64,000 bases of DNA from Bimastos eiseni (lineage: Eukaryota; Annelida; Clitellata; Crassiclitellata; Lumbricidae): NCBI GenBank assembly GCA_959347315.1, contig OY365817.1:1319357-1383356 (forward strand), written 5' to 3'. Below are positions 322 to 64,000 of this stretch, one piece after another (position 1 is the stretch's first letter; each line of letters starts with the position of its first letter). The translations under genes were made by a program, and so were the position numbers. The notes under the pieces are model-generated. The model had not been told where the DNA came from, made no database searches, and worked only from the letters and a program-made list of their open reading frames with translations.

Positions 322-492
322 GTGACACTGGTTCTTCTGGACCTTCTGGTAACCCTGGATTCCCAGGACCCTCTGGACCGCTTGGACCTGCTGGTAACGC
401 TGGTACATCAGGTCCACCTGGCCCACCTGGTCCAATAGGACCAGTGGGACCTAATGGACCACAGGGACAAGCAGGGCAAGATGGCACTCCAG
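322..492 (+). CDS. Collagen exon 1 (19 Gly-X-Y triplets)
   Basis: 171 nt, acceptor gatgacag, donor GTAGGC. Uncharged, Pro/Ser-rich helix starting DTGSSG and ending QDGTPG; the only charged residues are two Asp. Earlier exons of the gene lie to the left of the window. Confidence 0.93.
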
Positions 493-589
493 GTAGGCTG
501 GTCATAGCTTATCAGAGACGAATCGAAATGTGCACTGGAGATAGTTTATAAGCAGTGAATCAAGTGTTTGCACGTTAATGGCCAAGATG

Positions 590-771
590 TTATGTAATGT
601 GATGGTACAGAACATCTACATAGCACCTCTTCAAGGTGGTTACAGTTCTTGAGTTTTCTTTCAGTTTCATAGAGTCTGAGTGATAAGTCTTCATGAACAA
701 ATGGTTGTGCCTCAAAAATTATTATTAGCCCATTGTATTTGGTAAAACATTAAATTCAATATGTTTTTATT
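590..771. repeat. Dispersed intronic repeat, copy A
   Basis: About 180 nt nearly identical to 12951-13152. It includes cacctcttcaaggtggttac and ends at aattcaatatgttttta. The start resembles a reversed LINE tail (tagcacctcttcaagg). Confidence 0.8.
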
Positions 772-892
772 GATCTCAACAGATGAACATGTAGGCAAAG
801 TGATTATAATCAACAGGAGTGGGAAATAGAGAAGAAAAAAATGGCCCTAAATGGACCAACGGTCCTGATAGTCAGACTACCATTTTTCTTGA

Positions 893-956
893 AATAGAAG
901 TTGGATTGAAGATAATAATGCTTGCTAATTCAGCTTATTTTTCAGCAAGCATTATT
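893..956. repeat. Hairpin and inverted copy of the 36-bp repeat
   Basis: 914-926 (aataatgcttgct) and 944-956 are perfect 13-bp inverted arms. The start (893-921) is an inverted, imperfect copy of the unit of the array at 1065-1228. Confidence 0.7.
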
Positions 957-1064
957 TTCGTCTTTATATTGTCTATTTAGGAAGACTTACTCTAATCGAT
1001 CCAAATTTTTTTTCAGCTAGCATTATTTTCATCTATATAACATCTATTTGGAAAGAATTGCTCT

Positions 1065-1228
1065 CATCAATCCAACTTCTATTTAAGCATGTGTTATTAT
1101 CATCAATCCAACTTCTATTTAAACATGTGTTATTATCGTCAATCCAACTTCTATTTAAACATGTGTTATTATTGTCAATCCAACTTCTATTTAAACATGT
1201 GTTATTATCATCAATCCAACTTCTATTT
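1065..1228. repeat. 36-bp minisatellite, about 4.5 copies
   Basis: The motif tccaacttctattt recurs at 1071, 1107, 1143, 1179 and 1215, exactly 36 bp apart, with few changes. Confidence 0.95.
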
Positions 1229-1369
1229 TGCGAAATACAGTGGGCGAATAATAATTTTTTGGTCATGAATCTTTTGTCCGTTAGCCATTTTTCGGTGAAC
1301 CATTTTTTCAGTGAACCATTTGTTGATGAATCATTTGTCATCAACTACTTGTGTGTTATTTGTTTGTAG

Positions 1370-1612
1370 GTGGCGTTGGTGCAAGTGGATCTGTTGGACC
1401 AGTGGGACCCTCAGGCTCTCAAGGTCCTCCTGGAGCAGCGGGGAGATCAGGAGCAACTGGAACCCCTGGGAATACAGGTGGGACTGGCTATCAAGGATCA
1501 CCTGGACTTCCAGGTCCTCCAGGAGGAAGTGGGAACTCAGGACCTATGGGCCCACCAGGGCCAACTGGACCAGCTGGACAACAGGGTTCATCAGGATTCT
1601 CTGGACCTGCAG
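1370..1612 (+). CDS. Collagen exon 2 (27 triplets)
   Basis: 243 nt, acceptor tgtttgtag. The donor GTTGGC is weak but keeps the length a multiple of 9 and the Gly split. One Arg (RSG) and one Tyr (YQG) are the only notable side chains. Confidence 0.92.
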
Positions 1613-1699
1613 GTTGGCTAAGATAAACATTTCATAATTAAATTCAAACTGATGCACTTGACAATTATACTTGATTACAAGTGTGTTATGAATGGATGA

Positions 1700-1835
1700 T
1701 CGGAAGCTATTGCAGGAGTTGAATTTAACAGCATGGCAGCAATGCAAATTGCCCATCACTTCCTACATCTAATTTAGCCAATGCCACCACCTAGCAAATG
1801 GAAGGAATACTCACCTTATGGGGTGTTGATCTCTC
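1700..1835 (-). repeat. SINE body fragment
   Basis: aggagttgaatttaac, tggcagc, then an accttatgggg motif match the body of the tRNA-derived SINE at 22095-22275. The tRNA-like head is missing. Confidence 0.45.
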
Positions 1836-2205
1836 TCTTCACGCTAGTTTGTTATCCATTACTGTGGAATATATCTTTAAAAAAAACAGTGTGTATTTGT
1901 TACGTCTGTGCCATTTTTCTATTGTTTATGTTTCAGTAATTGCTGCCAATATTGTATTCTTCAATTCTTTATGGTATAGGTTATGGTATAGGTACAAGTT
2001 GAGGTTAGAATAGGTTGGATAACATAAACCAGCTGAACAAGGTTAGTTTGTGAGCTTAGGTTTTAGAACCAGCAAGGTATGTTGGAAAGGCAGGTATGTA
2101 GGCTATAATGTGTGTAAGTAATTATTCATTCATTAAATTGTTAAGTTTAATTATTAAAATTAAGTCTTCTTGCCTTAAATGACTAGACATTTTACCATTT
2201 TCCAG

Positions 2206-2565: not shown

Positions 2566-2784
2566 GTTTGAATTTCTTTCACCATTCTTGATTTTAACTT
2601 CACAAATCAAATGCAATTGTTTTGAAGTGCAGAAACTAAATTCTCAGTTTTAGGAAGTAAATTAGTTATTTAATTCTTTTCCTCAATTGAGAAACTGGCT
2701 TTCTTTTGGTGGATAAACACTAGCCCTTCATGATCTGTATAGTTTTTCAAAGTACAGCCATCTTAGAGCTTTTCTTTATCGCCA

Positions 2785-3736: not shown

Positions 3737-3997
3737 GATCTCCTGGTCCTCAAGGTCCTCCTGGATTTTCTGGGGCAGATGGATCACCCGGTGGACCTGG
3801 TTCTCCAGGATTTGCTGGACCACCCGGACCTAATGGCCGCCCAGGACCTTTGGGCCCTGCAGGGCCCTCTGGCCCTGCAGGGCCAAATGGTGACCCTGGG
3901 TCTCCGGGCCCAGCTGGACCATCGGGTTCTCAGGGTCCGTCTGGAGATAGAGGTGACCCTGGACAACCGGGTTCATCGGGACCGCAAGGTCCTTCAG
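3737..3997 (+). CDS. Collagen exon 4 (29 triplets)
   Basis: 261 nt, acceptor tatctag, donor GTTGGT. First exon in the window with an RGD (DRGDPG near its end). Exons 22 and 31 have the same length. Confidence 0.93.
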
Positions 3998-5431: not shown

Positions 5432-5872
5432 GACCCAGGGGAAATACGGGACCTTCTGGCAACACTGGGCTTCCGGGATCTATTGGTGCAAGCGGTACTG
5501 CCGGCGATCCGGGACCAAGTGGACCCAGTGGACCATCAGGTCCTAATGGAAATCCAGGTCCGCCTGGAGGTCCAGGACAATCCGGAAATGCTGGACCACA
5601 AGGATCTACGGGTTCCTCTGGAAACCAAGGCCCCAAAGGTCTTCCTGGACCGGCCGGCCCGTCAGGAAATTCCGGACCGGATGGATCGAAAGGCGTTCCT
5701 GGAGATTTGGGATTTCCAGGTCCTCCTGGTCCCACCGGATCCATCGGTCAGCCTGGTGGTCTTGGACCGAGTGGCCCTGTGGGTCAGAGTGGACCTGCTG
5801 GTCCGGTTGGACCTTCTGGACCGACAGGTGACATTGGACAACCAGGACCTATTGGCAACCCTGGACCTGCAG
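5432..5872 (+). CDS. Collagen exon 5 (49 triplets)
   Basis: 441 nt, acceptor tctgattag, donor GTCAGT. Mostly GPSG/GPTG-type triplets with two Lys (PKG, SKG) and one PRG. Exons 24 and 29 have the same length. Confidence 0.93.
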
Positions 5873-6340: not shown

Positions 6341-6343
6341 TAG

Positions 6344-6712
6344 GCCCCTCTGGACCGCAAGGACCAAACGGAGCAGTTGGAGATACTGGTTTCCAGGGCC
6401 AGCCTGGCTCACAAGGCCCAGCCGGACAGGCAGGCCCCAGTGGTCCAACAGGACCATCTGGACCTATAGGAGGACCCGGTCAGTCTGGTCCATCTGGTGC
6501 ACCTGGGTCTATTGGACCTTCTGGACCTAGGGGAGACAGTGGACCTTCTGGTCCATCTGGACAGGTAGGACCTCAAGGAAATAAAGGACAGCCTGGAGGA
6601 ACAGGGTTTCCTGGACCTCAGGGAGCTGCTGGCCCGGTGGGTCCCTCCGGAGCTACGGGGAATACTGGTCAGACGGGGCCTTCTGGTGCTCTCGGACCAC
6701 AGGGTGCATCAG
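6344..6712 (+). CDS. Collagen exon 6 (41 triplets)
   Basis: 369 nt, acceptor ccttttag, donor GTCAGT. Rich in PSG triplets; one PRGDSG and one NKG. Exon 11 has the same length. Confidence 0.93.
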
Positions 6713-8165: not shown

Positions 8166-8516
8166 GTGATACTGGATCATCAGGACCTCCAGGCCCCACT
8201 GGACCTGTGGGTCAGGCGGGTGATCCTGGTCCATCTGGTCCATCAGGTAACAGCGGAGCGGTCGGTGCAACAGGTGCAACTGGAGCGACAGGACGAACCG
8301 GAGCAACGGGTGGGACGGGATCTTCTGGTGGAGTTGGAAGCACGGGCTCTCCGGGCTTCCTAGGACCTCCGGGGGATTCGGGACCCACAGGGCAACAGGG
8401 CTTTCAGGGACCTTCTGGTAATCCGGGTTCATCAGGTCAGCCTGGTTTTCCAGGTCCACCTGGACAGAGAGGACCTTCTGGGTCAACTGGATCACCTGGA
8501 GGGACTGGATTTTCAG
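8166..8516 (+). CDS. Collagen exon 7 (39 triplets, Thr-rich)
   Basis: 351 nt, acceptor cctttcag, donor GTGAGT. Thr fills the Y position in 12 of 39 triplets by my count, more than Pro (9). The core is a run of ATG, RTG and GTG triplets. First of the 351-nt exon class. Confidence 0.93.
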
Positions 8517-8901: not shown

Positions 8902-9126
8902 GTCCTCCTGGAGCTGTGGGCCCAGCTGGATCAAGTGGAAACCCTGGTCCACAGGGATCAGTAGGAGCCACAGGAAACACTGGCTTCACTGGACCTCAGG
9001 GACTGAAAGGAGATCCGGGATTTGCTGGAGACCAAGGCCCTGTTGGACCTACTGGTCCGGTAGGACCTCTTGGGCCACAGGGTGCTCCTGGTCCCAGAGG
9101 ACCCACTGGAACTCAGGGTGCTACAG
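8902..9126 (+). CDS. Collagen exon 8 (25 triplets)
   Basis: 225 nt, acceptor tttttcag, donor GTCAGA. First of the 225-nt exon class; LKGDPG sits at triplets 12-13, close to the basic/acidic pair of exons 12, 14, 16 and 18. Confidence 0.93.
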
Positions 9127-9951: not shown

Positions 9952-10266
9952 GGAATAATGGCAATTCCGGAGCCCCCGGTCCAAATGGACAGCCTGGACC
10001 ATCCGGTATTTCAGGCCCAGTTGGTCCTTTAGGTCCAACTGGAGATATAGGAAGTCCTGGACAGTCTGGATCACCTGGAGTGCCAGGGTCAACGGGATCG
10101 AGTGGACTTCAGGGAGCGACCGGGGCTACCGGATTCACTGGACCTGCTGGTCAGCCTGGTTCAAACGGACCTCAGGGCCCAGCTGGTCCAGTTGGGTCCC
10201 CTGGTTCGAATGGTGATCGAGGGGACCCTGGATTTGTGGGACCAAACGGCCAACCAGGTCCACCTG
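9952..10266 (+). CDS. Collagen exon 9 (35 triplets)
   Basis: 315 nt, acceptor aattttag, donor GTAGGT. Starts with an Asn-rich stretch (NNGNSG) and contains DRGDPG near the end. Exon 34 has the same length. Confidence 0.93.
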
Positions 10267-10791: not shown

Positions 10792-11157
10792 GACCCACTG
10801 GACCAGATGGACCCAAAGGTCAGACCGGACCCTCTGGGAACGCAGGGGACGCAGGACCTCAGGGTCAACCCGGGTTCACGGGTGCTTCCGGACCTACTGG
10901 TCAGTCAGGCCCCGCTGGTCAGCCTGGGAACCCTGGTGGGCCAGGATTGACCGGGCCCACGGGGTCCAAGGGAGCCACGGGAGACAGCGGTTTGGCAGGA
11001 GCCCCCGGACCTCCGGGTAGCAATTCGTTGGGGGAAAGAGGACAGCCAGGCTTACCAGGGCAACAGGGACAGACTGGACCTCCTGGTTCCGGTGGCCCTC
11101 CTGGCCCAGCGGGAAGCCCTGGCAATACAGGGTCAACCGGACAAGTTGGAGCAGTGG
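10792..11157 (+). CDS. Collagen exon 10, with an interruption
   Basis: 366 nt (122 codons), acceptor tgtttcag, donor GTAAGT. One of only two exons not divisible by 9: at about 11014-11040 the repeat reads GSNSLGERG, two residues too many, giving 40 triplets plus 2. It also has one of the rare Glu residues. A similar NSVLGERG imperfection occurs in exon 46. Confidence 0.93.
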
Positions 11158-11786: not shown

Positions 11787-12155
11787 GTTCCACTGGAGCA
11801 ACTGGCGCCACTGGCCGGACTGGATCAACGGGACCAAGTGGACCCACAGGGCCCTCAGGGCCCCAAGGAAACCCTGGTCCAGCAGGGTCCAGAGGGTCAC
11901 CGGGCTTCACCGGAGCGACAGGAAACACTGGTAATAGTGGTAATGTGGGACCAACTGGACCCCGAGGAAATACTGGGCAACGTGGAGATCCTGGAGTACG
12001 GGGCCCAGTGGGCAGTTCAGGTCAGCCCGGGTCGCCAGGAGATGCAGGGCCTTCTGGACCGACCGGTCCTATTGGTCAACCGGGGCCATCCGGTCAATCT
12101 GGACCTCAGGGACCCCAAGGACCAGTAGGGTCATCTGGTCCTGTTGGATCTGCAG
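11787..12155 (+). CDS. Collagen exon 11 (41 triplets)
   Basis: 369 nt, acceptor tctttag, donor GTATGT. Opens STGATGATGRTG; includes QRGDPG. Arg is frequent (RTG, SRG, PRG, VRG) and Lys absent. Confidence 0.93.
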
Positions 12156-12508: not shown

Positions 12509-12733
12509 GTTCATCTGGTGCACTGGGACAGCCAGGACCTTCGGGCCCTACCGGTCCTGCAGGCCCACAAGGATTTCAGGGACCCCAAGGCTCGCAGGGA
12601 ACCAAAGGGGACTCTGGTGATACAGGATCTACAGGACCAAATGGGAATCAGGGAAATCAAGGCCCATCTGGGCCAACTGGACCATCAGGTTCTCCTGGAC
12701 CAAGAGGAGATACTGGTTCCCAGGGCAGCCCAG
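12509..12733 (+). CDS. Collagen exon 12 (25 triplets)
   Basis: 225 nt, acceptor tattttag, donor GTCTGT. An upstream AG at 12489-12490 was not chosen because it would bring an in-frame TAG into the exon. TKG at triplet 11 and DTG at 13 align with exons 14, 16 and 18. PRGDTG present. Confidence 0.92.
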
Positions 12734-13482: not shown

Positions 13483-13833
13483 GGCAAAGTGGACCTGCAG
13501 GTTCTCCTGGACCAAGGGGAAATTCAGGTGCTGCAGGACCAAAGGGGCCACTGGGACAGCCAGGTCCTGCAGGGTCTGCAGGCAATCCAGGCACTCCTGG
13601 AAACCCTGGACCACCAGGACAGGTTGGATCAGATGGTATTGCTGGACCTACTGGGCCAACTGGACTTACAGGACCTGCTGGTCCCAGTGGATTCCCGGGT
13701 CAGGCTGGGTCACCAGGACCTCAGGGAGGACCTGGCTCTCAAGGTCAACCTGGGCCTAGGGGAGATTTGGGTCCAGCAGGACCGAGTGGCCCCTCAGGAA
13801 GTCCTGGTCTACCCGGATCCACGGGTTCTACAG
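13483..13833 (+). CDS. Collagen exon 13 (39 triplets)
   Basis: 351 nt, acceptor tggtttag, donor GTGATA. Pro/Ala/Ser-rich with PRGDLG; aligned PRG at triplet 4 is shared with exons 15 and 17. Confidence 0.93.
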
Positions 13834-14254: not shown

Positions 14255-14479
14255 GTGCAACCGGTTCTTCCGGGCAGCCGGGCCCTCGAGGTGATGTGGG
14301 ATCCCAGGGTCAGCCGGGACCTCGAGGCGATCAGGGTCCGTCCGGACCCAAGGGAAACCAAGGAGATGTGGGATCGCCTGGACCTACTGGACCATCCGGC
14401 TCTCCAGGTCCAGTGGGAGGTCCTGGACAGCGTGGACCTAGTGGTCCAACGGGAAATCCAGGAACACCTGGAAGCCAAG
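14255..14479 (+). CDS. Collagen exon 14 (25 triplets)
   Basis: 225 nt, acceptor ctttccag, donor GTAAGA. PRGDVG and PRGDQG; PKG at triplet 11 and DVG at 13, as in its sister exons. Confidence 0.93.
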
Positions 14480-14556: not shown

Positions 14557-14768
14557 TTAAGCACATGGGGGTAGTTAAGCACATGGGGGTAGTTAAGCAC
14601 ATGGGGGTAGTTAAGCACATAGGGGTAGTTAAGCACATGGGGGTAGTTAAGCACATGGGTGTAGTTAAGCACATGGGTGTAGTTAAGCACATGGGGGTAG
14701 TTAAGCACATGGGGGTAGTTAAGCACATGGGGGTAGTTAAGCACATGGGGGTAGTTAAGCACATGGGG
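14557..14768. repeat. 18-bp minisatellite, about 12 copies
   Basis: Unit agcacatgggggtagtta, nearly perfect. It reads as a six-residue repeat in every frame on both strands but has no gene context. Confidence 0.96.
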
Positions 14769-15859: not shown

Positions 15860-16210
15860 GTAGCCCTGGTCCTGTTGGGCCAACTGGGTCCAGAGGAGAT
15901 GGAGGTTCACAGGGTGCTCCTGGAAGCCCTGGTAGCCAGGGACCTTCAGGAGATCCAGGACCTGCAGGAAATCCAGGCAATCCTGGGTCTTCCGGTGCTC
16001 AGGGCGCAACTGGACAGACGGGCAGCAGTGGGACGGTGGGAGTTCAGGGGCCTCGAGGCGACCCTGGGACCTCGGGAAATCCAGGCCGTCAAGGACCTAC
16101 CGGACCCGTTGGACCTCAGGGACCACAAGGGACTGCAGGATCCACTGGATCCTCTGGACAGCCTGGTCCACAAGGACCCAGAGGCGATCCAGGAACTCAG
16201 GGAAGCCAGG
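15860..16210 (+). CDS. Collagen exon 15 (39 triplets)
   Basis: 351 nt, acceptor ctttgcag, donor GTAAGT. Three RGD; PRG-DPG at triplets 22-23 matches exon 17 (PRG-DTG) and exon 30 (LRG-DPG), supporting common descent of the 39-triplet exons. Confidence 0.93.
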
Positions 16211-17000: not shown

Positions 17001-17225
17001 GTAACACTGGATCTCCTGGGCCATCCGGGCCAGCTGGTGATGTTGGGCCTGCGGGCCCTGTCGGTCCAAGTGGAGACTTTGGGCTTCAGGGTCCGAAAGG
17101 GTTACCTGGAGACATCGGACTGGCTGGACCATCTGGACCGATTGGATCTCCAGGACCGGCCGGTCCACAGGGATCACGTGGATTACCCGGTCAAGCAGGA
17201 TTCTCTGGGCAACCAGGAGCAATAG
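17001..17225 (+). CDS. Collagen exon 16 (25 triplets)
   Basis: 225 nt, acceptor tgttgtag, donor GTATGT. DVG, DFG and DIG at triplets 5, 9 and 13 and PKG at 11, the clearest match to exon 14. Confidence 0.93.
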
Positions 17226-18213: not shown

Positions 18214-18564
18214 GAGGTACTGGTGCAACTGGATCATCTGGACCTCGAGGTGATGTTGGTCCAGCCGGACCTTCAGGTCAGAGAGGCACTCCTGGAACAG
18301 ATGGGGACCCAGGAGCCCAGGGCAGCCCAGGACTGAGAGGCGATCCAGGCACACCTGGTCCTAATGGTCAGCCCGGATCACTTGGACCGGCTGGACCATC
18401 CGGACCCAGAGGAGATACTGGACCTAGAGGAAATTCTGGATCTTCAGGATCTCCTGGGCCGAGTGGCCCAAGAGGGGACGTGGGTCCGGCGGGACCCACT
18501 GGTCAACCGGGCCCATCTGGTTCACCGGGAAGTCAGGGAAGTACGGGTGGAACTGGGAGTCCAG
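18214..18564 (+). CDS. Collagen exon 17 (39 triplets)
   Basis: 351 nt, acceptor ttctactag, donor GTAAGA. Four RGD (two [18 protein letters not shown]); high Arg and Asp. Confidence 0.93.
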
Positions 18565-19326: not shown

Positions 19327-19551
19327 GACCAACAGGGCCCACAGGTCCGTCAGGGCTGCCAGGGTCAAATGGATCCCCTGGCCAACCTGGACCTGCGGGT
19401 GACCCAGGCACCCCAGGAAATCGAGGTCAGACAGGTGACATTGGATTTCCTGGCTCGCCTGGACCCAATGGACAGCCGGGACCAGCGGGTCCTTCAGGCT
19501 CTCCGGGACCCAAGGGACCTTCTGGAGACATTGGCACACCTGGCCAACCAG
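19327..19551 (+). CDS. Collagen exon 18 (25 triplets)
   Basis: 225 nt, acceptor atttttcag, donor GTATTT. NRG at triplet 11 and DIG at 13. Last member of the strict 225/351 alternation. Confidence 0.93.
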
Positions 19552-21028: not shown

Positions 21029-21388
21029 GTGGTATTGGGCCTGCGGGTCCTCAAGGCCCACGAGGTGACCTGGGTCCACAAGGAGATACAGGTTCGACTG
21101 GATCATCAGGGTCTCCTGGACCTGCGGGGCCAAGAGGAGACGTTGGACCGGTTGGATCCCCAGGATCCATGGGCCCAACTGGTGCCTCTGGACTGGCTGG
21201 TGACCCAGGATTTAAGGGCCCCACCGGAAATGCAGGACAACAAGGCAGTACTGGATCAACTGGGGCAACCGGGCAAAGCGGACCCGCCGGGCAGGCAGGA
21301 AACCCTGGAAGTCCTGGACAGCAAGGAGCTCCAGGTCAGAGGGGTGATCAAGGCGGTACTGGACAGCCTGGAAATCCTGGATCAGCAG
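21029..21388 (+). CDS. Collagen exon 19 (40 triplets), GC donor
   Basis: 360 nt, acceptor ttttcaaag. The exon ends CAG|GCAAGT, a classical GC-AG donor; no GT in the right phase is present. Three RGD (PRGDLG, PRGDVG, QRGDQG) and one Lys (FKG). Confidence 0.91.
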
Positions 21389-43527: not shown

Positions 43528-43860
43528 GTGTGGGCGGACAGCAGGGTTCCACTGGTGGAACTGGAGCCACAGGACTTTCTGGAGGTATTGGTGCAACTGG
43601 TGGAACTGGAGCCTCGGGCGCTCCTGGAAATCCGGGGGCTCAGGGATTCCCTGGGAACCCCGGAGACGTGGGACCCAGCGGCCAACCTGGAGCGTCGGGC
43701 AGCCCAGGACCATCGGGTGCGCGTGGGGATACCGGTGGACCAGGACCATCTGGTCAGGCAGGGCCGGCTGGACCAACTGGTCCAAGTGGACCACGTGGTG
43801 ATCCAGGTACCGCTGGTGCCACAGGCATCCCAGGAGATGCAGGAACTCCAGGAAACCCAG
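43528..43860 (+). CDS. Collagen exon 36 (37 triplets)
   Basis: 333 nt, acceptor gttccag, donor GTATAT. Gly- and Thr-rich start (GTGATG, GIGATG), then ARGDTG and PRGDPG. Confidence 0.93.
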
Positions 43861-45469: not shown

Positions 45470-46009
45470 GTTCCATAGGTCCTGCAGGACCCCAGGGTCC
45501 AAGGGGTGATGTCGGTCCAGACGGACAAGCAGGATCACGTGGATTGTCAGGTCCGGCAGGAGACGTTGGAGCCACCGGTTCATCTGGAGTGCGAGGAGAC
45601 ACTGGGTCTCCTGGACCAACTGGAAATCAGGGCGTTCAAGGACTACGTGGTTCACAAGGTGTCCAGGGCCCTAAAGGACCTCAGGGACGCGTCGGTGATA
45701 CCGGAGTCTCGGGATCGCAAGGGGACACGGGAGCGTCTGGTATACAGGGCGCACAGGGAGCAACCGGACTGTCGGGACCAGCTGGACAGGTTGGTCCGGC
45801 TGGTCCTTCGGGGCAGAGGGGTGATCCAGGTCCTAGAGGCCAACCAGGGACAGATGGCACTCCAGGCACTGCAGGAGCCACTGGGTCTTCAGGATTTCCA
45901 GGAGATGTTGGTCCGTCTGGACCTCAAGGTGCACCAGGACAACGAGGACTTAATGGAGCCACTGGAGATCCTGGAGGAGTGGGAGTGAGTGGACCTGCAG
46001 GACAACCAG
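45470..46009 (+). CDS. Collagen exon 37 (60 triplets)
   Basis: 540 nt, acceptor tttcacag, donor GTAACA. Three RGD; Val- and Arg-rich (VQGLRG, VQGPKG). Confidence 0.93.
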
Positions 46010-46503: not shown

Positions 46504-47394
46504 GGACATCTGGTTCTCCTGGTGCTCCAGGCGATAGAGGAGATCAAGGTTCACCTGGTGCAGCTGGATCCCCTGGTCAACCAGGCCCAGCAGGCCAGCG
46601 TGGGGATGCTGGTCTACCCGGTCCTCAAGGAGGCACGGGTCAGGCTGGGGCCTCTGGAACTCCGGGCCAGCCGGGCTCACAGGGCCAGAATGGACCATCA
46701 GGGCCCCAAGGAGCGACAGGTTCCGTTGGTCAACCAGGATCTGCAGGACCAAGAGGCGACGTAGGACCTCAAGGATTTCCAGGGCAGCCAGGCCAAAGTG
46801 GACCTCAGGGCCAACAGGGAGACACTGGTAGCTCTGGGGCAACAGGCCAATCAGGTGCAATTGGCTCCCCTGGGGCCAAGGGACCAACTGGTGACCCAGG
46901 AACTGTAGGTTCAACAGGACAGCCGGGGAATAGGGGAAGTGATGGTTCGCCAGGCACACCAGGAAGTCCAGGACTTCAAGGTGATCAAGGACCAGCAGGG
47001 TCAAAAGGTGGAACGGGGGCAAGTGGTGCCCCTGGTGCCAAGGGGGATCCAGGTTCGGCTGGCTCTCCGGGCAATCCAGGCAATCGGGGAGCTGCGGGTG
47101 ATCCTGGTGCCACTGGCAGCCCTGGTACACCTGGGCAGCCTGGATTTTCAGGTCCATCTGGATTATCTGGTCCTTCAGGCCCTTCTGGACCTGTTGGCCC
47201 AGTAGGACCTGCCGGGCCTAGAGGTGACCCTGGCTCAAGAGGTAACCCCGGGCCTGCAGGATCTGCTGGAGGTACTGGTCAAACAGGAGCGGCTGGCCTA
47301 CCCGGCCAGCCTGGAGCAACCGGAGGTATAGGGACACCGGGATCAGCTGGAGATCGAGGGGATCCGGGAACCCCTGGTGATATAGGACCAGCAG
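46504..47394 (+). CDS. Collagen exon 38 (99 triplets), GC donor
   Basis: 891 nt, acceptor ttatttcag. The exon ends CAG|GCAAGT, the second GC-AG intron of the gene. Five RGD. Perfect repeat. Confidence 0.92.
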
Positions 47395-49024
47395 GCAAGT
47401 TTTTTGGCATTTATATGGACATTGTATTGTATTGTACTTAAGCATTTTTAAAGCACCTCTGGTAGAGCGAACTGTTCCCATGCAAAGGACTCTGGATCAG
47501 ATTGCAACTGCAAACCCTAGAATTAGTTAGATATCAAGGATTGATTCCCTCTGAAGATCTGTTATCTGATCTTGACCAAGAACCTAACATTGAGCCTCAA
47601 CCAGGGACTCTATGAAAATAACTTATAGAATTTCTTTATTTAATGCATGCCTCAATCTACCTTGAGCCTTTGGAGTCAATGTCTCAGGGTTGAGAGATCA
47701 TGGCTTAAGTAGCATTCCAATCAAGAGACAACGTATCATGATGGTAACATGGCTTGATTATGACTTTTAATTTAAAATCTTGCAATTGGATTCATAACTT
47801 AGACACCAAGTTCATAGGCAACAGCATTGCTTAACTGCCATCTCCCTCCCAAAGATCAAGGAGTATAGAAACATTTGTTACTCTGAATACCTTACCCAGG
47901 AAGAGAGGTTCTTTGGGCTTATAGTGGGCACGGTTAGCGTGCCTTTGGTGGTCACTGGTGGTTGGCCCATCAGGGATTAGTGACATTGTTAATCAATGAC
48001 ATATAGATCATTCATTCACTGTATTTCTTTCGGTTTTCAGGCCCCCAAGGTGCACGTGGACAACAGGGATCACCTGGTGACACGGGTGCCTCCGGAGCAA
48101 CTGGTCAGAAAGGTCAGGTGGGTGCAGCAGGACCTAGAGGTGACCCAGCGCTAAATGGACCTAAAGGCGATACGGGTGTTGTGGGTCCCCAAGGAGCCAC
48201 AGGCTTTTCTGGATTACCTGGGTCTCAAGGACAAACTGGTGAGAAGGGCGATCCCGGAAGCAAGGGATCCCCAGGCCCGAATGGAAATCCAGGACAGGCC
48301 GGGCAATCTGGTTCTCAAGGAGCCCCTGGCCAGCAGGGAGCACAAGGAGCCACTGGATCTTCTGGGCTTAGGGGTGACCCTGGTTTTGATGGGGCCGCAG
48401 GACCAATTGGAAGCGTTGGTCAGCCTGGACAACGAGGACCTGCAGGTAAAAACTTATGACGGATTCGTTGTTCTAAAGCATCTTACATTTTCCATTGTAT
48501 TATGTAATGTAAGCGAACATTTCTGTAAGTCAGTTTTCCTCATTTTCTTTAGCAATGCTTAGACCGCCCATTCTACCATAGTAGTAGACCAACAGGTTAT
48601 AAACGGTATGGTCATCTGCGGAATAACTAATTGCCAAGATTCTATTACAAGTACCTACACACTTTCCATTTGATTGCTTTCGGTCTTAGAATGATATTTC
48701 ACAAAAACCACTATATAAATGATAGAATGTAATTTTCAATGCTCACTTTAACGATGAGATATCGACTGAGAATCAATCCATTTAGTTCCTCAGTTAAGTA
48801 TTAATTATCGATTTCCTCAAGGGAAATTTGTCGATGCTGATGTATATGCTAGGCTAACTGATGTTGACATCAAACAAGAAGTTCATCACTGTGCAAACAG
48901 CGTGCTCAGTTACCTTGAACTTTCACCGCTGGATGAAGGAAGGCTGAAGAATTTCAAGTTCAACTTCTTATGCCAGCCATTTCAATTTTTATATTATCTA
49001 AGTGTTGCTGTTTCCTTTTCCCAG
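47395..49024 (+). other. Introns 38 and 39 around exon 39, nearly featureless
   Basis: Intron 38 (47395-48040) has only a weak reversed tail-like piece near 47435-47465 and intron 39 (48446-49024) nothing recognisable. Exon 39 itself is listed separately. Confidence 0.4.
48041..48445 (+). CDS. Collagen exon 39 (45 triplets, one Gly-to-Ala site)
   Basis: 405 nt, acceptor gttttcag, donor GTAAAA. At 48148-48150 a Gly codon is GCG (DPALNG). Contains Glu (GEKGD), rare in this protein, and is the most Lys-rich exon. Confidence 0.92.
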
Positions 49025-49150
49025 GACAAGCCGGCAACCCTGGCTCTCCAGGACCCAGAGGTGATGCTGGCGCTCAAGGACAGCAGGGACAGCCTGGCCC
49101 AGCAGGACCCTCTGGCCCCAATGGACAGCCTGGTACTCAAGGAGCAACAG
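49025..49150 (+). CDS. Collagen exon 40 (14 triplets)
   Basis: 126 nt, acceptor tttcccag, donor GTCAGT. The shortest complete exon; one PRGDAG. Confidence 0.92.
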
Positions 49151-49898: not shown

Positions 49899-50240
49899 GT
49901 GGTAAGGGAGCAACTGGAAATCCCGGTCCAGCTGGCAATCCTGGAACACCTGGCCAGGCTGGATCTAGGGGTGACGTTGGCGTCCAGGGTCCTGTTGGAG
50001 CAAATGGTCAGCCTGGAGCCACTGGATCTCCTGGTCTTGTAGGCAGCCAGGGATCGAGAGGAGACCCAGGCCCACCTGGTGCAAATGGAGGAACTGGTGC
50101 ATCAGGACAACCAGGGCAAAGAGGTGACCCTGGACAACAAGGGCCAAGTGGGGCACGAGGTTCGCCAGGGGATCGAGGAGACACAGGAGGTACTGGACAG
50201 CCTGGGCTAATTGGGGATCCAGGACCTCGTGGACAAGCAG
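49899..50240 (+). CDS. Collagen exon 41 (38 triplets)
   Basis: 342 nt, acceptor ccttccag, donor GTATGT. Four RGD (SRGDVG, SRGDPG, QRGDPG, DRGDTG). Confidence 0.93.
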
Positions 50241-50916: not shown

Positions 50917-51501
50917 GAAACCCTGGAACACCTGGTTCACCTGGTAGTCTTGGCGATCCTGGTGTTCAGGGTCAAGCAGGTGCAACTGGACAGCCTGGAT
51001 CACAAGGTCAGAATGGAGACCCTGGAGCACCTGGAGGTACTGGACCCACTGGCCCTGTTGGAGACACCGGGTCTTCTGGACAGGCAGGAGGACCTGGGTT
51101 GACTGGTGATCTGGGTCAAGCCGGTGCGAATGGTCCACAGGGGCCACAAGGTATCTTGGGAAGTCGAGGAGATCCGGGACCACGGGGCGATCCGGGGACT
51201 CGAGGAAACTCTGGTGCACCCGGTGGCCCTGGATCACCGGGTCAGGCTGGTGACATTGGGCTGCAAGGACCTCTGGGATCACCTGGTACCCAAGGACCAG
51301 CTGGTGCAACTGGAACACCAGGAAGTCCTGGACAGCCGGGTCAGAGAGGAGATGTAGGTTCTCAGGGTGTATCTGGACAGCCTGGAAGTCAAGGTCCTAC
51401 TGGACCTGCAGGGTTTCAAGGACCAACTGGACAGCGAGGAAATCCAGGATCCAGAGGCGATGCTGGACTTCCTGGAGCATCTGGATCTGCTGGACCACCT
51501 G
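50917..51501 (+). CDS. Collagen exon 42 (65 triplets)
   Basis: 585 nt, acceptor tattttag, donor GTGAGT. Four RGD; Gln and Pro rich. Confidence 0.93.
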
Positions 51502-51910: not shown

Positions 51911-52513
51911 GGACTCCAGGAGACCTTGGTTCGCCAGGTGTCAGAGGTGATACCGGTTTCACGGGATCGACAGGGGCAACTGGGTTTTCAGGAGCTCCTG
52001 GCAACAGAGGTGCTACTGGCAGCCAAGGCCCCAGTGGGCAGAATGGAGATCAGGGTGACCCTGGTGCTGCTGGTAGCCAAGGTCCTTCGGGTGGTCCTGG
52101 ACAGCGAGGTGATCCTGGGCAACCTGGAGCAACGGGGTCTTCTGGTGGTCCTGGTCAGAGAGGTCTTCCAGGTAACAGAGGTGATCCAGGTCCTAGTGGA
52201 TTGCCTGGATTGCCTGGTTCAGATGGATCGCCTGGATCTGTTGGGTCACCCGGTGCTCAGGGTGTGGCTGGTTCGGTGGGATTAACTGGAGACACTGGAC
52301 CAGCGGGATCTCCTGGTCCAAGGGGAAATGCAGGACCCGCTGGGGCAGGTGGAGCGACTGGAACATCTGGAACCCCTGGAGTGAGGGGTGATCCCGGTCA
52401 GGTGGGTCTACCTGGCTCTCAGGGAGGCACTGGAGCAACAGGCTCATCAGGATCGAAGGGATTTCAAGGACCGCAAGGACCTTCAGGAGCATTTGGACAA
52501 AGGGGAACAGCAG
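51911..52513 (+). CDS. Collagen exon 43 (67 triplets)
   Basis: 603 nt, acceptor gtttttag, donor GTTAGT. Four RGD ([24 protein letters not shown]); Thr-rich start (FTGSTGATG). Confidence 0.93.
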
Positions 52514-53263: not shown

Positions 53264-53722
53264 GTAGTACTGGACAGCCTGGACCCCCAGGACAGAGGGG
53301 TGACCTTGGATATCCAGGTCCCACAGGACCCTTGGGTCCCACAGGTGCTGCCGGACCACGTGGTGCAACTGGATCATCAGGACAGCCAGGAGTGGCAGGT
53401 TTCTCCGGACCAACTGGACCAGTGGGAGACATCGGCTTACCTGGAAGCAGTGGTCCACAGGGGGCTACAGGACAACCTGGATTTCCAGGGTCACAAGGAT
53501 CTCCAGGCTCACGAGGACTCCCTGGAGATACAGGGGCTTCTGGTCAGGCAGGAGATCCGGGATTTCCGGGAGCTCCTGGTGTGAATGGAGATCCAGGAGG
53601 CACGGGAGCAACAGGAAGTCCGGGACAAAGAGGTGACTCTGGTTTACCAGGACAGCCTGGAGATTTAGGAAGTCCAGGTACTGCCGGGGCCAGGGGAGAT
53701 ACAGGAGCAACTGGTTCAGCAG
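53264..53722 (+). CDS. Collagen exon 44 (51 triplets)
   Basis: 459 nt, acceptor tgcaatag, donor GTCAGG. One Tyr (LGYPG); QRGDLG, QRGDSG and ARGDTG. Confidence 0.93.
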
Positions 53723-54532: not shown

Positions 54533-55846
54533 GTCCCACTGGACAGCAAGGACCAAAGGGTCTGCGTGGAGACACGGGCGCATCGGGCCAACAAGGAGCA
54601 ACGGGTGCCTCGGGTCCTCGTGGTGGTACTGGAGATCCGGGTAGCCTAGGGAGTCCAGGGGCTAGAGGAGACCCTGGTGCAGCCGGAGGCACAGGGGCAA
54701 CTGGGGATACTGGAGCACCTGGACCAATTGGAGACCAAGGAACAAGTGGCCCACCTGGATTAGCAGGCTCTCAGGGATTACAGGGACCATCTGGGCCCCC
54801 AGGTGATCCGGGTCTGAGAGGTGACATTGGATTGCCCGGTAGTTCTGGGGGAACTGGCCTGCCTGGACAGCCTGGCTTTGGTGGGCAACCAGGAGCTCAA
54901 GGAGTCCGTGGTAGTACAGGACTCGCAGGAGATGCTGGAAGGGCGGGAGATCCAGGACAAGCGGGATCACCTGGACTACCTGGACCTTCTGGACCAAGAG
55001 GAGACCCTGGATATGCTGGCTCTCCGGGGAGTGTCGGACCCAATGGTGCTCGTGGACCCCAAGGAGCTGCAGGGGCAACAGGTGATACTGGATCTTCAGG
55101 TCCCAGTGGTGATGTTGGACCATCTGGGGATATTGGGCCACCTGGCCCTTCTGGACCAGCAGGAGTCAATGGGCTACCTGGTCAGAGTGGCTATCCAGGA
55201 CCTAGAGGGTCACCTGGAGGTAAGGGACTTCCTGGAAGCCCTGGTACCCCTGGAGGAACAGGTGAAACAGGACTTTCTGGAATTGCTGGAGCACCCGGTC
55301 TCCAAGGAGCTCCTGGTGATAATGGGCAGGCTGGTTTGCCGGGTCAGTCCGGTGATTCAGGAGTGCCAGGCTCACCAGGACCTCGAGGTCTGCCTGGTTC
55401 AAGAGGATCAACTGGTACTCCAGGTTCCCCCGGCCCAAATGGACCCACAGGAGACATTGGTTCCCCAGGAGCCTATGGCCTGCAGGGTGCAACTGGACTG
55501 AGGGGACCCAACGGACTAGCTGGCGGAACTGGAGCTACCGGAGATACTGGTCCTCAAGGGAGCGTCGGACCTTTGGGACCAGGTGGTGATACTGGTCCAC
55601 TAGGTCCGGATGGTCCTCAGGGACAACGAGGACCCCAGGGCAGTCCTGGGGCACGTGGTGTGCCCGGTACTCCTGGAGATGCAGGACTAGTTGGTCCTCA
55701 AGGAGACTCTGGTCCACAGGGCTTTATCGGCCCAGCTGGTTTCCCGGGCTCTGCTGGGTTGGCTGGACTACCAGGGGGAACTGGACCTGCTGGTGTTCCT
55801 GGTGATCAAGGCATGCCTGGTGCACCAGGTAGTCAAGGCACTCAAG
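54533..55846 (+). CDS. Collagen exon 45 (146 triplets, 1,314 nt)
   Basis: The largest exon, acceptor tgatgcag, donor GTGGGT. 438 codons of unbroken Gly-X-Y with four RGD, one Glu (GETG) and three Tyr. Likely a fusion of several ancestral exons. A G-rich tract lies about 60-180 nt beyond its donor. Confidence 0.94.
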
Positions 55847-56917: not shown

Positions 56918-57511
56918 GACCACTTGGGGCAACAGGACCTACCGGGCCAGATGGTGATCAGGGTTTGCAGGGTCTTCAGGGCCCTTTTGGCGCAACTGGA
57001 CTGCAGGGATCACTGGGCGCACCTGGACCTAGAGGAGATCCAGGCCAGCCGGGCGGCCAAGGACCTTCAGGACCATCTGGTCAGCCAGGCGGACCAGGAG
57101 CTAAAGGCGATCCTGGTCCAGATGGGGACCTAGGAGCTCAGGGACCCACAGGCCCATCAGGAGGCCCAGGTGCCAAGGGTGATGTAGGTCCAGTGGGTGC
57201 ACAGGGAGCACCAGGCCCAGCAGGGACTAACTCTGTGCTGGGAGAAAGGGGTGATGGTGGAGCCACTGGACTTCAGGGATCAGTTGGAGGCAAAGGACCC
57301 ACTGGAACTCCAGGATTGCCAGGAAGTCCTGGAGCGCCTGGAGCGACCGGTGATACAGGTCTTCAGGGCCCGTCTGGAAATCCCGGCGCTACGGGTGTAT
57401 CTGGGCCCATGGGAGCGACTGGACCCCAGGGAGTGAAAGGCCCTAATGGTCAGCAGGGACAGCGTGGTGACCCAGGTGTCCGTGGTCAATCAGGAGCAAC
57501 TGGAGCGTCTG
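56918..57511 (+). CDS. Collagen exon 46 (66 triplets, one Gly-to-Ser site)
   Basis: 594 nt, acceptor tttttgtag, donor GTGAGT. At about 57223-57250 a Gly position reads Ser: GTNSVLGERGDG. The surrounding motif matches the interruption of exon 10 (GSNSLGERG). Three RGD. Confidence 0.93.
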
Positions 57512-58398: not shown

Positions 58399-58857
58399 GA
58401 TTTGCTGGACCAACCGGACCACCTGGATCAAGGGGAGACTTTGGTGTCTCCGGGGCAACAGGACTTGCAGGAGAGAATGGTGCAGCAGGCAGCACGGGAC
58501 CTGATGGATCCCCTGGAAGTCCTGGAGCCAAGGGACTGCCGGGCCTGCAGGGTGAGGCTGGTATCCCAGGGGCTTCGGGCATGCCCGGAGATCCTGGGTT
58601 CCCAGGTCAGGCAGGACCCGGTGGGGCTCAGGGAACGAGTGGAGTCGCTGGAGACACTGGGGCAACTGGAGGTCCTGGGCAGGTGGGTGATGTGGGATTA
58701 CCAGGGGTGCAGGGAGCAACTGGTGGGCCAGGCCCAATCGGCCCTGTCGGAGGGGCTGGGCCGGGTGGTGCCAGAGGACTGCCTGGACAACGTGGTGATC
58801 CTGGACCCAGAGGACTAGATGGTCCCATTGGACCATCAGGACCAAGAGGCACTCAAG
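58399..58857 (+). CDS. Collagen exon 47 (51 triplets)
   Basis: 459 nt, acceptor gattttag, donor GTTAGT. Two Glu (GENG, GEAG); SRGDFG and QRGDPG; Gly-rich middle (AGPGGAQG) that still keeps register. Confidence 0.93.
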
Positions 58858-59424: not shown

Positions 59425-60198
59425 GGGCATCTGGACAGCCTGGGTCACCTGGAGTGCGTGGAACTGATGGCCAGCCTGGATTGGCTGGTGCAACCGGATT
59501 TGCTGGACTTCCTGGTTCTCGAGGCGATCCAGGTCTTAGGGGTGCTGCTGGTTCCAGTGGGTCAAAGGGTGGTCGAGGGGACTTTGGAAATCCCGGAGCG
59601 GCCGGAGCAACCGGTGCAATCGGAGCAGTTGGAACCACAGGTGGAACCGGATTTACTGGAGCACGTGGAACGCCTGGCTTGCCAGGGCAATCCGGAGTAC
59701 GAGGAATATCTGGAGCTGATGGATCAACTGGAGCGGCTGGACCAGCTGGACAAGTAGGACAGAGGGGAGACTCAGGTCCTGCTGGACCTGCAGGCCCAAC
59801 TGGTCCTCAGGGTCAGGCAGGACTGAGAGGAGATCAGGGATTCCAGGGCCAGGCGGGCCTACCTGGCGACAAGGGGGCTACGGGTGCACCTGGAAACAAC
59901 GGTACTCAAGGACAGAGAGGAGATCCTGGATCCCAAGGAGTGGTAGGACTAAATGGCCCTGTGGGGGCCACCGGCTTGCAGGGGGCTACGGGCGACCCTG
60001 GAGTAATTGGTGACCCAGGACCAAGAGGACCGCAAGGATCGACCGGCTCGTCTGGGATCAGTGGCGATACGGGTCCTCAGGGTCCAGATGGGCAGGTCGG
60101 GGCTAAGGGAGTCAATGGAGATCCTGGTCTGACTGGGGAGGCTGGACTACCCGGATCAACAGGCCCTCGTGGTGATGTGGGACAAATCGGACCTCAAG
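59425..60198 (+). CDS. Collagen exon 48 (86 triplets)
   Basis: 774 nt, acceptor tttttcag, donor GTAGGC. Six RGD; Ala/Thr-rich centre (AAGATGAIGAVG). Confidence 0.94.
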
Positions 60199-61115: not shown

Positions 61116-61565
61116 GTGTAAGCGGTCCGTTCGGAGCAACTGGTCAAAATGGCGCTGCTGGTGCTGCCGGAAACACCGGTGCTCCAGGTTCTCCAGGTCT
61201 TCAAGGACTCAGAGGAGATACCGGACCAAACGGAACCGCTGGACCTAGAGGCGACGTTGGACTCTCAGGACCTTCCGGCCAGGTGGGGCTTCCAGGTCTT
61301 TCGGGAGCAACTGGAAATCCTGGACCGATCGGACCCACAGGACAGAGGGGCGCTGCGGGAGTCCGAGGGGCGACGGGACTGGGTGGGTTGTCGGGAGCAA
61401 CAGGAGATCCAGGAGTTCAAGGACCTCGAGGACTTCAGGGAGATCCAGGACTTGTTGGTGCAACTGGGCTGCTCGGGGGCCCGGGCCTGCGAGGGTTTGC
61501 TGGCGATCAAGGCGCAAGGGGATCTCCGGGAGGAACGGGACCGAGGGGTCTCTCTGGGGCTACAG
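61116..61565 (+). CDS. Collagen exon 49 (50 triplets)
   Basis: 450 nt, acceptor tgccttag, donor GTAGTC. Leu- and Thr-rich (LVGATGLLG); LRGDTG and PRGDVG. Confidence 0.93.
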
Positions 61566-61739
61566 GTAGTCTACATCTAATCTAATCGGATCTAGAGCGT
61601 TCTATGGCAATGTATTTTTAATGCATGGACTGCTTTTAAATGTGCTCTTATGTTAATGTTCAGTTATAATTACAATTAATATTAATTAATAATCTTATCG
61701 GTAAACTTGTGTAGCACTGTTGTTATGTGGACCATGTCA

Positions 61740-61885
61740 GTTCTATCAACAGAGTAGGACTTGAAGAGAATAAATGTTGAATTCAAGAGTTTTAATGTAA
61801 AAAGTAAAATTAAATTTGGAAACTGTTATTTATCACCATGGTTTGACGCAGTGTCTCTTGGAGGGGGCGCTATACAAGTCCTCTC
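61740..61885. repeat. Duplicated intron segment and LINE tail
   Basis: gagttttaatgtaaaaagta at about 61786 recurs at about 63239 with related flanks (63190-63290). A tail-like gggggcgctatacaagt follows at about 61863. Downstream, 62100-62345 is CATA/TATA-rich. Confidence 0.6.
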
Positions 61886-62389
61886 ACTCCTCTGTGTGTA
61901 GATCCATTTGCTCTGGAACAGAATCCATGGGCTGGGCTGTATGCATGTGCGAGAGCCTTCTGTGGTCTATTCTAGTCATGTGAGATTAGCAAGTAAGTAT
62001 ATTCTTTAGTCAGACGTCTGCAAATGCACGACATGCACAACGAAAATTTAACAAGTACAAAGAAATGCATTTCTTGATCCTAGTGACATAGGCTTCAAGT
62101 TGTTTATTAGATCAATGTTTATATACATACATATCTTCATAATACACATGCAAATACATACAATTGCATATATATGCAATTATGCATGCATTGCATAGTT
62201 TATATGGATATATGTCCATAGATACATATATACCTAACATAACTTACTTACATACATACATGTGCATTCGTGATTTAAATATATAGTTTCTATACATATA
62301 TACATGAATAAATGCACACATACTTATATGCATAAATATTTACCTGCATGCATATACGTGGTGGTTAGTCCAGCTGTTTCCTGTTGTAG

Positions 62390-63100
62390 GTGCGACTGGC
62401 TTATTGGGAGTAGCTGGAACGGCTGGAGATACGGGTGCCTCTGGTGCCGTTGGTGATACTGGATTGCAGGGTCCTCAGGGCGACACTGGGCCTGTGGGGG
62501 CCAGAGGGGTTGTCGGCATTCGAGGCGATCCTGGAGTCAGGGGCGAAAACGGGACTGCAGGACAGGTGGGACCGCGGGGTCCAAACGGAGTTGTTGGAGC
62601 CACCGGACCAGCCGGGCCGGTCGGACCCGCGGGACCACAGGGCTATCCCGGACCCAGAGGTATTCAGGGACTCAGTGGCGAACTGGGGCTGGGTGGTGAC
62701 ACTGGTCCTGATGGACCAGCTGGACCAAAGGGGCCTCAGGGAGCCATAGGACTCATTGGGCCAACCGGAGCAGTCGGTTCCAATGGAACTGCTGGCCCAC
62801 CTGGGTCACAAGGAGACCGTGGTTTGCCTGGGGCAACGGGTGCAACGGGGCTGCTTGGTCAATCTGGGGCAACTGGTCTACAAGGCAACATAGGTCAACC
62901 GGGTCCTGTTGGTCAACAAGGTGCAACTGGCCCGCTAGGACCTGCCGGAGGAGGTGGTGATACTGGGGCCCCTGGTCCACAAGGAGCTAGAGGTCAGAAT
63001 GGTGTCATTGGTGATCCTGGCCCACTCGGACCGGCTGGACCAGTGGGGCCAGCAGGGCCTCGAGGAGACCAGGGCGTTATGGGCCCTCCAGGAGACCAAG
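62390..63100 (+). CDS. Collagen exon 50 (79 triplets)
   Basis: 711 nt, acceptor ctgttgtag, donor GTTTGA. Y-position Thr 12 against Pro 8 by my count; more hydrophobic (Val, Leu, Ile) than the 5' exons. IRGDPG and PRGDQG; two Glu. Confidence 0.93.
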
Positions 63101-63291
63101 GTTTGAATTCTCATCTTTTGCTGGTATATCTTGGTACCTGTCACTGGTAATATGTGTTTGTTATTACACATATTTATATAGCCCATTAATATCTATCAAC
63201 ACAGTTGAAATTCATGAGAACTGTTGTTATATTTGATTGAGTTTTAATGTAAAAAGTAAAAGTTTGTTTACTTGTGAAACTATCAATAAAA

Positions 63292-63450
63292 CAAAGCCAA
63301 ATGCACAAATGACCTAATTACCTGTTAAATGCACAAATTACCTGATTACTTAAGTCAAAAGTATAAATGACCTGATTACTCAAGCCAAATGTATAAATGA
63401 CCTGATTACGTAAATCAAATGTATGAATGACTTGATTAAGTAAGTCAAGT
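63292..63450. repeat. 30-bp minisatellite, about 5 copies
   Basis: Unit tataaatgacctgattac plus 12 nt, copies increasingly diverged to the right. Confidence 0.88.
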
Positions 63451-63656
63451 GAAACAAACTGAACTGATTACCTGAATGCACGAGCTGACCAAGGTTGGAT
63501 GCACAAATTGACATAATTGTCTACTTGACATAAATGAAATGCGCCTATTGGCCAAGTACATGAATTGACCAAATTGACTTATGTGAAATGCACAGACATG
63601 GAACCGGAAACACTGAAGGTTCATCCAGTGCATAAACAGTTGATTGAAGGCAACAG

Positions 63657-63747
63657 GTTCATCCAAAACCTATGTGGTGCTAATGTTCATGGAAACAAAA
63701 CGTTCATCCAAAACCTATGTGGTGTTAATGTTCATGGAAAACAAAAG
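63657..63747. repeat. 45-bp tandem duplication
   Basis: gttcatccaaaacctatgtg starts two copies of 45 and 46 nt differing at a few bases; a partial third flank lies on the left. Confidence 0.9.
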
Positions 63748-63911
63748 GTTAATCAGGTGCTACAAAGTTTCATTAAATACAAAGGCTTCATCTGTTGCCC
63801 GTGTGGTGCTAATAACAATGATAAACATAACCTGAGTTTAGCTTTAAAGTAGGGCTGTAGAAATGTGGTGATCACGATTATTATACTTTGGACTATGTTT
63901 GCTTTCTTCAG

Positions 63912-64000
63912 GAATGAACGGAACAGTTGGTGTGCCAGGCAACGTGGGTGAGGCGGGCGCCTACGGCAGGCCAGGCACAATAGGAGGCACTGGCCCTTCT
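63912..64000 (+). CDS. Collagen exon 51, cut by the window edge
   Basis: Acceptor tttcttcag; 89 nt seen, starting MNGTVGVPG and continuing in perfect triplets to the last base. Contains Glu (GEAG) and Tyr (AYG). The gene continues to the right. Confidence 0.9.

Follow-up and report, generated by a model that had tools for sequence, protein, structure and literature searches.

A 62-exon gene model for a giant collagen chain with a VWA domain, a predicted membrane anchor and a charge register conserved in a sister gene

We analysed a stretch of 64,000 nucleotides (hereafter, the window; contig C12, positions 1319357-1383356, from a 660 Mb assembly of 118 contigs), which an earlier note had described as part of one giant collagen gene. 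We read the window as the middle of a 62-exon gene of an annelid, probably an earthworm-like one, for a giant collagen alpha-chain, with a VWA domain and a C-terminal membrane anchor, which would be deposited in the cuticle as a register-keyed rod, and we give this reading as a whole a probability of about 0.7. The exon structure, the VWA domain (by profile), the hydrophobic stretches, the lengths, the sister gene and the conserved register are directly supported. All coordinates are those of the window, unless a contig is named.

The search for in-frame Gly-X-Y runs of at least five triplets returned 57 runs on the forward strand and five on the reverse strand, the latter of five to six triplets each, and none in five dinucleotide shuffles. 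When at least nine triplets were required, the forward strand retained 57 runs, and the reverse strand and ten dinucleotide shuffles had none. A chance origin of the runs is thus ruled out by the shuffle controls and by the clean reverse strand at the higher threshold. After merging the runs belonging to the same exon, we obtained 51 collagen exons on the forward strand, 50 complete plus the first 89 bases of the 51st, as the earlier note had counted and with the same start at position 322. All 51 acceptors are AG and fall between the first and second bases of a glycine codon (phase 1). The donors of the complete exons, sought solely in the phase matching the acceptors, are GT in 48 cases and GC in two, and the exon length is divisible by 9 bp in 48 cases out of 50.

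The spliced frame of the window is free of stops and codes for 7,206 residues, where at least 7,202 had been claimed; the Gly-X-Y repeat is interrupted by six breaks, all short, and for this reason the description of the triple helix as "nearly continuous" is correct. The window introns, 42,062 bp in all, yielded no extra exon (at least three triplets, with AG before it and a final G followed by GT). Reading all three forward frames through stops, the only Pfam family matched at E <=0.001 was PF01391 (Collagen). Internal start and stop exons, which the earlier note had indicated as the mark of several shorter genes, were not found in the window sequence, and neither was any other Pfam domain. 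The collagen exons of the window are the following:

322-492, +, collagen exon 1 (gene exon 5 of 62)
1370-1612, +, collagen exon 2
2206-2565, +, collagen exon 3
3737-3997, +, collagen exon 4
5432-5872, +, collagen exon 5
6344-6712, +, collagen exon 6
8166-8516, +, collagen exon 7
8902-9126, +, collagen exon 8
9952-10266, +, collagen exon 9
10792-11157, +, collagen exon 10; break GSNSL then GERG at 11016-11030
11787-12155, +, collagen exon 11
12509-12733, +, collagen exon 12
13483-13833, +, collagen exon 13
14255-14479, +, collagen exon 14
15860-16210, +, collagen exon 15
17001-17225, +, collagen exon 16
18214-18564, +, collagen exon 17
19327-19551, +, collagen exon 18
21029-21388, +, collagen exon 19; GC donor
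21624-21875, +, collagen exon 20
22638-22880, +, collagen exon 21
23580-23840, +, collagen exon 22
25698-25985, +, collagen exon 23
28303-28743, +, collagen exon 24
30172-30684, +, collagen exon 25
31273-32226, +, collagen exon 26
33108-33503, +, collagen exon 27; Ala at two glycine positions, 33206-33241
34344-34856, +, collagen exon 28
35015-35455, +, collagen exon 29
36492-36842, +, collagen exon 30
37540-37800, +, collagen exon 31
38313-38780, +, collagen exon 32
40001-41029, +, collagen exon 33; breaks at 40261-40275 and 40834-40848
41777-42091, +, collagen exon 34
42637-43068, +, collagen exon 35
43528-43860, +, collagen exon 36
45470-46009, +, collagen exon 37
46504-47394, +, collagen exon 38; GC donor
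48041-48445, +, collagen exon 39; break at 48139-48156
49025-49150, +, collagen exon 40
49899-50240, +, collagen exon 41
50917-51501, +, collagen exon 42
51911-52513, +, collagen exon 43
53264-53722, +, collagen exon 44
54533-55846, +, collagen exon 45; counterpart in the sister gene 52% identical
56918-57511, +, collagen exon 46; break GTNSVL then GERG at 57223-57240
58399-58857, +, collagen exon 47
59425-60198, +, collagen exon 48
61116-61565, +, collagen exon 49
62390-63100, +, collagen exon 50 (last complete)
63912-64000, +, collagen exon 51, truncated by the window edge (on the contig it ends at 64523)

A tRNA-Gln called by ARAGORN at 43545-43633, within exon 36, is probably false; Rfam returned no RNA at gathering scores on the window.

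The contig flanks hold two further collagen exons upstream and, downstream, the remainder of exon 51 and six more. Candidate start and stop exons were also found there, in agreement with the statement that both gene ends lie outside the window, and extending the analysis along the assembly, as had been suggested, gave a VWA exon on the 5' side and an exon with a predicted transmembrane segment on the 3' side:

-7140 to -7011, signal-peptide-like exon, phase 1
-5644 to -5057, VWA exon, phase 1
74118 to 74488, last exon with the stop, phase 1

The resulting whole-gene model predicts 62 exons spanning 81,629 bp, with a protein of 9,017 residues. With one start exon, one stop exon, 59 collagen exons in total and 61 introns out of 61 in phase 1 (59 GT and two GC donors), the model supports the single gene proposed earlier. 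In three of the nine flank exons, the donor was picked among several possible ones; we ignored three runs of five triplets far upstream and one of eight triplets that lies in another frame within a longer exon. The collagen domain amounts to 8,655 residues over the 59 exons which, at the rise of 0.286 nm per residue of the collagen helix, makes about 2,475 nm. Annelid cuticle collagens are about 2.4 micrometres long, and the length class suggested by the earlier note is therefore borne out on the whole helix.

The VWA exon matched Pfam PF00092 with E 1.5e-34, and its frame retains the D-x-S-x-S and TDG motifs, which we take to be the metal-site motifs of VWA. Its nearest relatives of solved structure are collagen VI alpha-3 (scored over eight stretches) and proximal thread matrix protein 1. 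The gene thus carries a globular domain 5' of the helix, with predicted splicing to it. Ahead of the VWA domain, the hydrophobic N-terminus looks, by hydropathy, like a signal peptide. The last exon codes for a 21-residue stretch with mean hydropathy 2.50, after which come basic residues and then a tail some 70 residues long; the exon had no family match in Pfam, and on hydropathy we predict that it encodes a type I membrane anchor. A COLFI domain was not found in the three forward frames of the window or in the last exon, the flanks not having been scanned as a whole. Both ends of the helix carry a GYTGATG-like sequence with Trp, and 21 of the 27 helix tyrosines lie at or beyond position 5,860; the tyrosine pattern is not common to both sisters, because tyrosine is much rarer in the sister gene on contig C4.

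This sister has the same order of parts, with 59 collagen exons and a C-terminal hydrophobic stretch (mean 2.76 over 21 residues). Without any length preference in the exon caller, 54 of the 59 collagen exons are equal in length between the two genes (exons 2, 20, 34, 35, and 46 differ); when the caller favoured the lengths of the first gene, the equal exons were 57 out of 59. One doubtful 10-triplet run (position 59152, 29 bases past an exon end) was dropped from the sister model. The sister helix has 8,653 or 8,654 residues, against 8,655, the two values being given because a break at 3972, where the start of exon 35 is uncertain, could come from an error in the model.

Between the two genes, DNA identity is 57% and identity at non-glycine residues is 36.9%. 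Even so, 103 of 115 RGD sites are in register between them, while 120 shifted alignments gave a mean of 6.1 and a maximum of 13. Comparing motifs across the triplet junction, the share of the rarer count that coincides is 90% for RGD and 3-46% for fourteen others. The register is also kept by 45 of 57 lysines; overall conservation is 79% for Lys, 77% for Arg, 76% for Asp and 54% for Pro, and 8-32% for ten other counted residues. In addition, six of the eight helix breaks of the first gene have a break within five residues in the sister, and two of these shared breaks lead into GERG in both genes. The register counts were made on a MAFFT alignment with the sister model from the length-favouring caller; MAFFT is biased towards matches, but the alignment is for the most part dictated separately by the equal lengths of the exons. 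The conservation of charges and breaks amid 37% identity points to selection on the chain register.

The composition of the window chain is, per 1000 residues, Gly 345, Pro 173, Ser 89, Gln 80, Ala 73, Thr 61, Asp 42, Arg 28, Lys 6 and Glu 1, with no Cys, His or Trp; cysteine is missing from the whole helix. R-G-D, the commonest charge pair of the chain, occurs 105 times in the window chain, against 21 expected and a maximum of 35 in 1,000 triplet shuffles. No such enrichment was found in 240 collagen-bearing proteins returned by our searches (222 observed vs 233 expected), a biased set in which fish collagens abound. Pro follows 43 of the 105 sites, and we considered that salt bridges account for the conserved register of RGD no less well than a cell-adhesion signal. 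Pro is the commonest residue in Y, with Thr second; Gly-Pro-Pro is scarce (40 observed vs 161 expected from X and Y frequencies), and Pro in X becomes less frequent along the window chain, at 0.39 in its first quarter and 0.20 in its fourth. Where Thr is in Y, Ala and Gly are found in X far more often than expected (GAT 101 vs 37 expected, GGT 35 vs 11) and Val, Thr, and Gln are avoided there, possibly leaving room for a sugar on Thr. Testing the window chain for a 234-residue period in charge, hydrophobicity, Pro and RGD, we found no peak and no value above the permutation 95% level; on this test of the window part, the chain would not form D-banded fibrils.

Internal duplication was also evaluated as the origin of the length and was rejected, as the best local match within the window chain scored 11.3 and the maximum of 12 shuffles was 11.5. 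Among 32 pairs of equal-length exons, exons 25/28 (z 5.0) and 14/16 (z 3.7) stand out, and these are therefore at most traces of old duplications. The alternation of 225 and 351 bp exons had little sequence support as a repeat module.

The genome holds other collagen arrays. Among the matches listed, arrays of similar extent lie on C1 (25.70-25.77 Mb), C3 (15.05-15.12 Mb), and C5 (23.53-23.59 Mb), the last with a VWA match directly 5' of it (33% identity, E 1.4e-9). Among the matches listed for exon 45, the sister on C4 aligned end to end at 52% identity and a frame on C12 at 21.44 Mb at 45% (residues 16-433), and therefore the gene and its C4 sister are the closest pair among these. A collagen-like frame at C17:17633805-17635103 is 37% identical to exon 45 over residues 2-437 and has seven in-frame TGA. 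Smaller clusters, with open frames up to 818 aa, were seen at C12:21.43-21.46, C14:7.24-7.27, C13:11.73-11.76 and C1:2.83-2.87 Mb, and lone collagen frames of 974 and 1,314 aa on C15 and C16. With 150 of 321 candidates scored, the VWA domain of the gene had at least 147 genome matches at E <=0.001, one of them being itself; many are clustered, indicating a large VWA family in the genome.

The origin of the DNA was evaluated on globins. Out of 19 genome matches, two exons (L028 and L038) that looked extracellular-type by eye were compared with PDB. All 30 matches of L028 were extracellular or giant-haemoglobin chains, ranked 1x9f_B (E 1.5e-42), 4u8u_B (9e-32), and 1yhu_B (2e-16). For L038, 28 of 33 matches were of extracellular or giant-haemoglobin type and the other five were cytoglobin, with 2d2m_C as the best (E 1.6e-17) in a near tie with extracellular globin 4 of 4v93 and 1x9f. 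We take 1x9f and 4v93 to come from Lumbricus, 1yhu from Riftia, 2d2m from Oligobrachia, and 4u8u from Glossoscolex, a genus named in the PDB row for 4wch. On these two exons, the annelid nature of the genome is well supported.

Some elements were observed in the introns of the gene. Intron 23 contains, at 26362-27414 on the reverse strand, an open retroelement frame of 351 residues, 80% identical over 91% to P0241, a reverse-transcriptase-domain protein. In intron 22, a 170-aa frame without a Pfam match (24489-24998, reverse strand) lies between ATCAAAAGGGCG-like tandem arrays that, judged by eye, are oppositely oriented; the whole, at 24295-25410, looks like a DNA transposon. An intronic 18-bp minisatellite lies at 14557-14768 (11.8 copies, 97% match).

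Considering the gene as a whole, we infer the splicing of the end exons, the make-up and orientation of the trimer, its salt bridging, its start at the membrane, its cuticle location and its release as follows. The N-terminal signal peptide would take the chain into the endoplasmic reticulum, where it would carry one VWA domain, 8,655 residues of nearly unbroken Gly-X-Y, a juxtamembrane stretch, one transmembrane helix at the C-terminal end and, after it, a tail. This gene and its sisters would supply three equally long chains, which would meet at the membrane end, and the triple helix would zip outward from there. More than 100 R-G-D sites would set the register across 2.5 micrometres, with the Arg of one chain bridging the Asp of the next. 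Through its VWA tip the rod may bind the adjacent matrix, and it would be deposited in the epidermal cuticle, whether or not it is cleaved from the membrane. The molecular arrangement, i.e., a type I transmembrane giant collagen with an outward-grown helix, a distal VWA head and a register given by the RGD ladder and fixed breaks, stands in our opinion at even odds.

Some observations weigh against this reading. The gene model comes from genomic sequence, and that the VWA and tail exons are spliced to those of the helix is predicted from splice phase, order and the layout of one sister. We know of no purified cuticle collagen that is membrane-bound, and therefore cleavage is assumed or the anchor has another role. 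Searching the genome with the tail returned the gene itself, the C4 sister (E 5.7e-4) and three insignificant matches; none fell at the C1, C3, and C5 arrays, in what is a weak test with five candidates. The spacing of RGD is uneven along the window chain, the first 328 residues having none and the longest gap being 342. Glu, although charged, is conserved between the sisters at just 22% of 18 sites. Pro tops the Y position, unlike in the Thr-dominated cuticle collagen of Riftia. The earthworm affinity of the genome, lastly, is probable from one globin exon (L028), and L038 is equally near a non-earthworm chain.

Other explanations should be compared with this one. The same gene could code for a giant annelid collagen used outside the cuticle, i.e., held in the membrane of another epithelium, or in glands, chaetal sacs or the cocoon. 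The cuticle location of the chain was deduced from sequence, at least three other large arrays (C1, C3, and C5) and the smaller clusters could hold the cuticle collagen, and neither a transmembrane tail nor a VWA domain is among the features of cuticle collagen known to us. Against such a use, the helix has the length of cuticle collagen, is low in Lys and Glu and devoid of Cys, and its window part has no 234-residue period; moreover, the Pro fractions of the sister (X 0.346, Y 0.221) resemble those reported for an earthworm giant in a section of PMC12403961 (X 0.403, Y 0.215). We hold a non-cuticle use to be unlikely. A comparably low probability goes to a plain secreted cuticle collagen, with the transmembrane exon as a removable end or part of another transcript. 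The tail was found in two genes only among the five candidates, and cuticle collagen comes out as a soluble rod on extraction; conversely, the phase 1 of the tail exon, its layout and its hydrophobic stretch are common to both sisters. These two explanations overlap with the cuticle-rod reading, and the odds need not sum to one.

Two further possibilities concern the integrity of the gene itself. We rejected a series of shorter collagen genes in tandem, which we consider very improbable: on the forward strand of the window, neither internal start or stop exons nor a Pfam domain besides Collagen were found, the flanks hold one start, one VWA exon and one tail exon, and the sister has 59 matching collagen exons. 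A misassembly stringing together repeated collagen exons appears to us the least probable of all, although a section of PMC12403961 calls the misassembly of long annelid collagens hard to exclude. Indeed, the chain has no internal repeat above shuffles, the locus lies inside a 29.6 Mb contig, and a sister with mostly equal exon lengths and only 57% DNA identity is found on a separate contig.

The size class of the collagen described here is already known, because annelid collagens of 7,719-8,859 residues have been reported (PMC12403961). With respect to the literature searched, our contribution is the predicted VWA-helix-transmembrane layout, the exon map and the conserved charge register. The model describes exon by exon a collagen that is among the longest known, with a sister chain for comparison. 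The comparison between the two opens to test how chains of about 9,000 residues find and hold their register; the answer suggested here is a sparse conserved charge code with a membrane start, instead of a propeptide of the fibrillar type. Exons in phase 1 and in multiples of nine bases would permit most exons to be gained or lost with the triplet intact, a simple path to giant size. The chain can also be seen as nature's design for a collagen rod of great length and low lysine content.

In comparison with known collagens, the gene shares with the fibrillar ones a long, near-perfect Gly-X-Y helix. The exons of fibrillar collagens are in phase 0 and based on 54 bp, whereas here the introns are in phase 1, 4 of 59 collagen exons are divisible by 54 bp, the 234-residue period is missing, and Lys and Glu are scarce. 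Type VI and other VWA collagens have a VWA domain adjoining the helix, as in our gene; the type VI helix, however, is short (about 335 residues) and flanked by several VWA domains, while we found one VWA domain and a helix of 8,655 residues. The MACIT group (XIII, XXIII, XXV) has a predicted membrane span adjoining a collagen ectodomain, but in type II orientation with an N-terminal span; on hydropathy, the span of our gene is C-terminal and its N-terminus signal-like.

Annelid cuticle collagens are made by the epidermis and laid in the cuticle, with Pro in X hydroxylated and Thr/Ser glycosylated. The very long helix (about 2.4 micrometres) and a globular domain are common to them and to our gene, and the transmembrane anchor lies outside what we know of them. 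As cited in PMC11766948, they have a very long helix and globular domains (Gaill 1995, Mann 1996), and the title of a paper cited there states that glycosylated Thr dominates Y in Riftia cuticle collagen, whereas Y is led by Pro, with Thr second, in our chain. Among ~3,300-10,500-residue proteins, no close giant was found in the best 120 of 122 matches (E <=1e-10; 983 scored), and the same held for a 438-aa query in the best 120 of 5,151 (E <=0.001; scoring covered the 7,983 candidates with the most words in common with the query).

In the literature searched, giant annelid collagens were reported only in PMC12403961 (2025). Its relevant section gives 8,859 (Alvinella), 8,689, 8,413, and 7,719 residues and one further giant in Eisenia andrei, and states that siboglinid gene predictions fall short of giant length. 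The earlier statement that few cuticle collagen genes have been described thus holds in part: that section has no domains or exons, but it does report five giant annelid collagens. It also has no exon map, sisters or charge register, and the likeness is one of length and Pro fractions; we used only these, because the repeat counts given there (e.g., 5,698) exceed the triplet capacity. The alvinellid and Eisenia andrei giants are, like our chain, annelid, of the same length class wherever a length is stated, mostly Gly-X-Y and richer in Pro in X than in Y, as reported for all five (PMC12403961) and as measured in our gene (0.273 in X, 0.246 in Y) and in its sister. The summed Pro fraction of X and Y is 0.548-0.705 in the five giants of that section; our gene is lower (0.519) and its C4 sister falls within this range (0.567).

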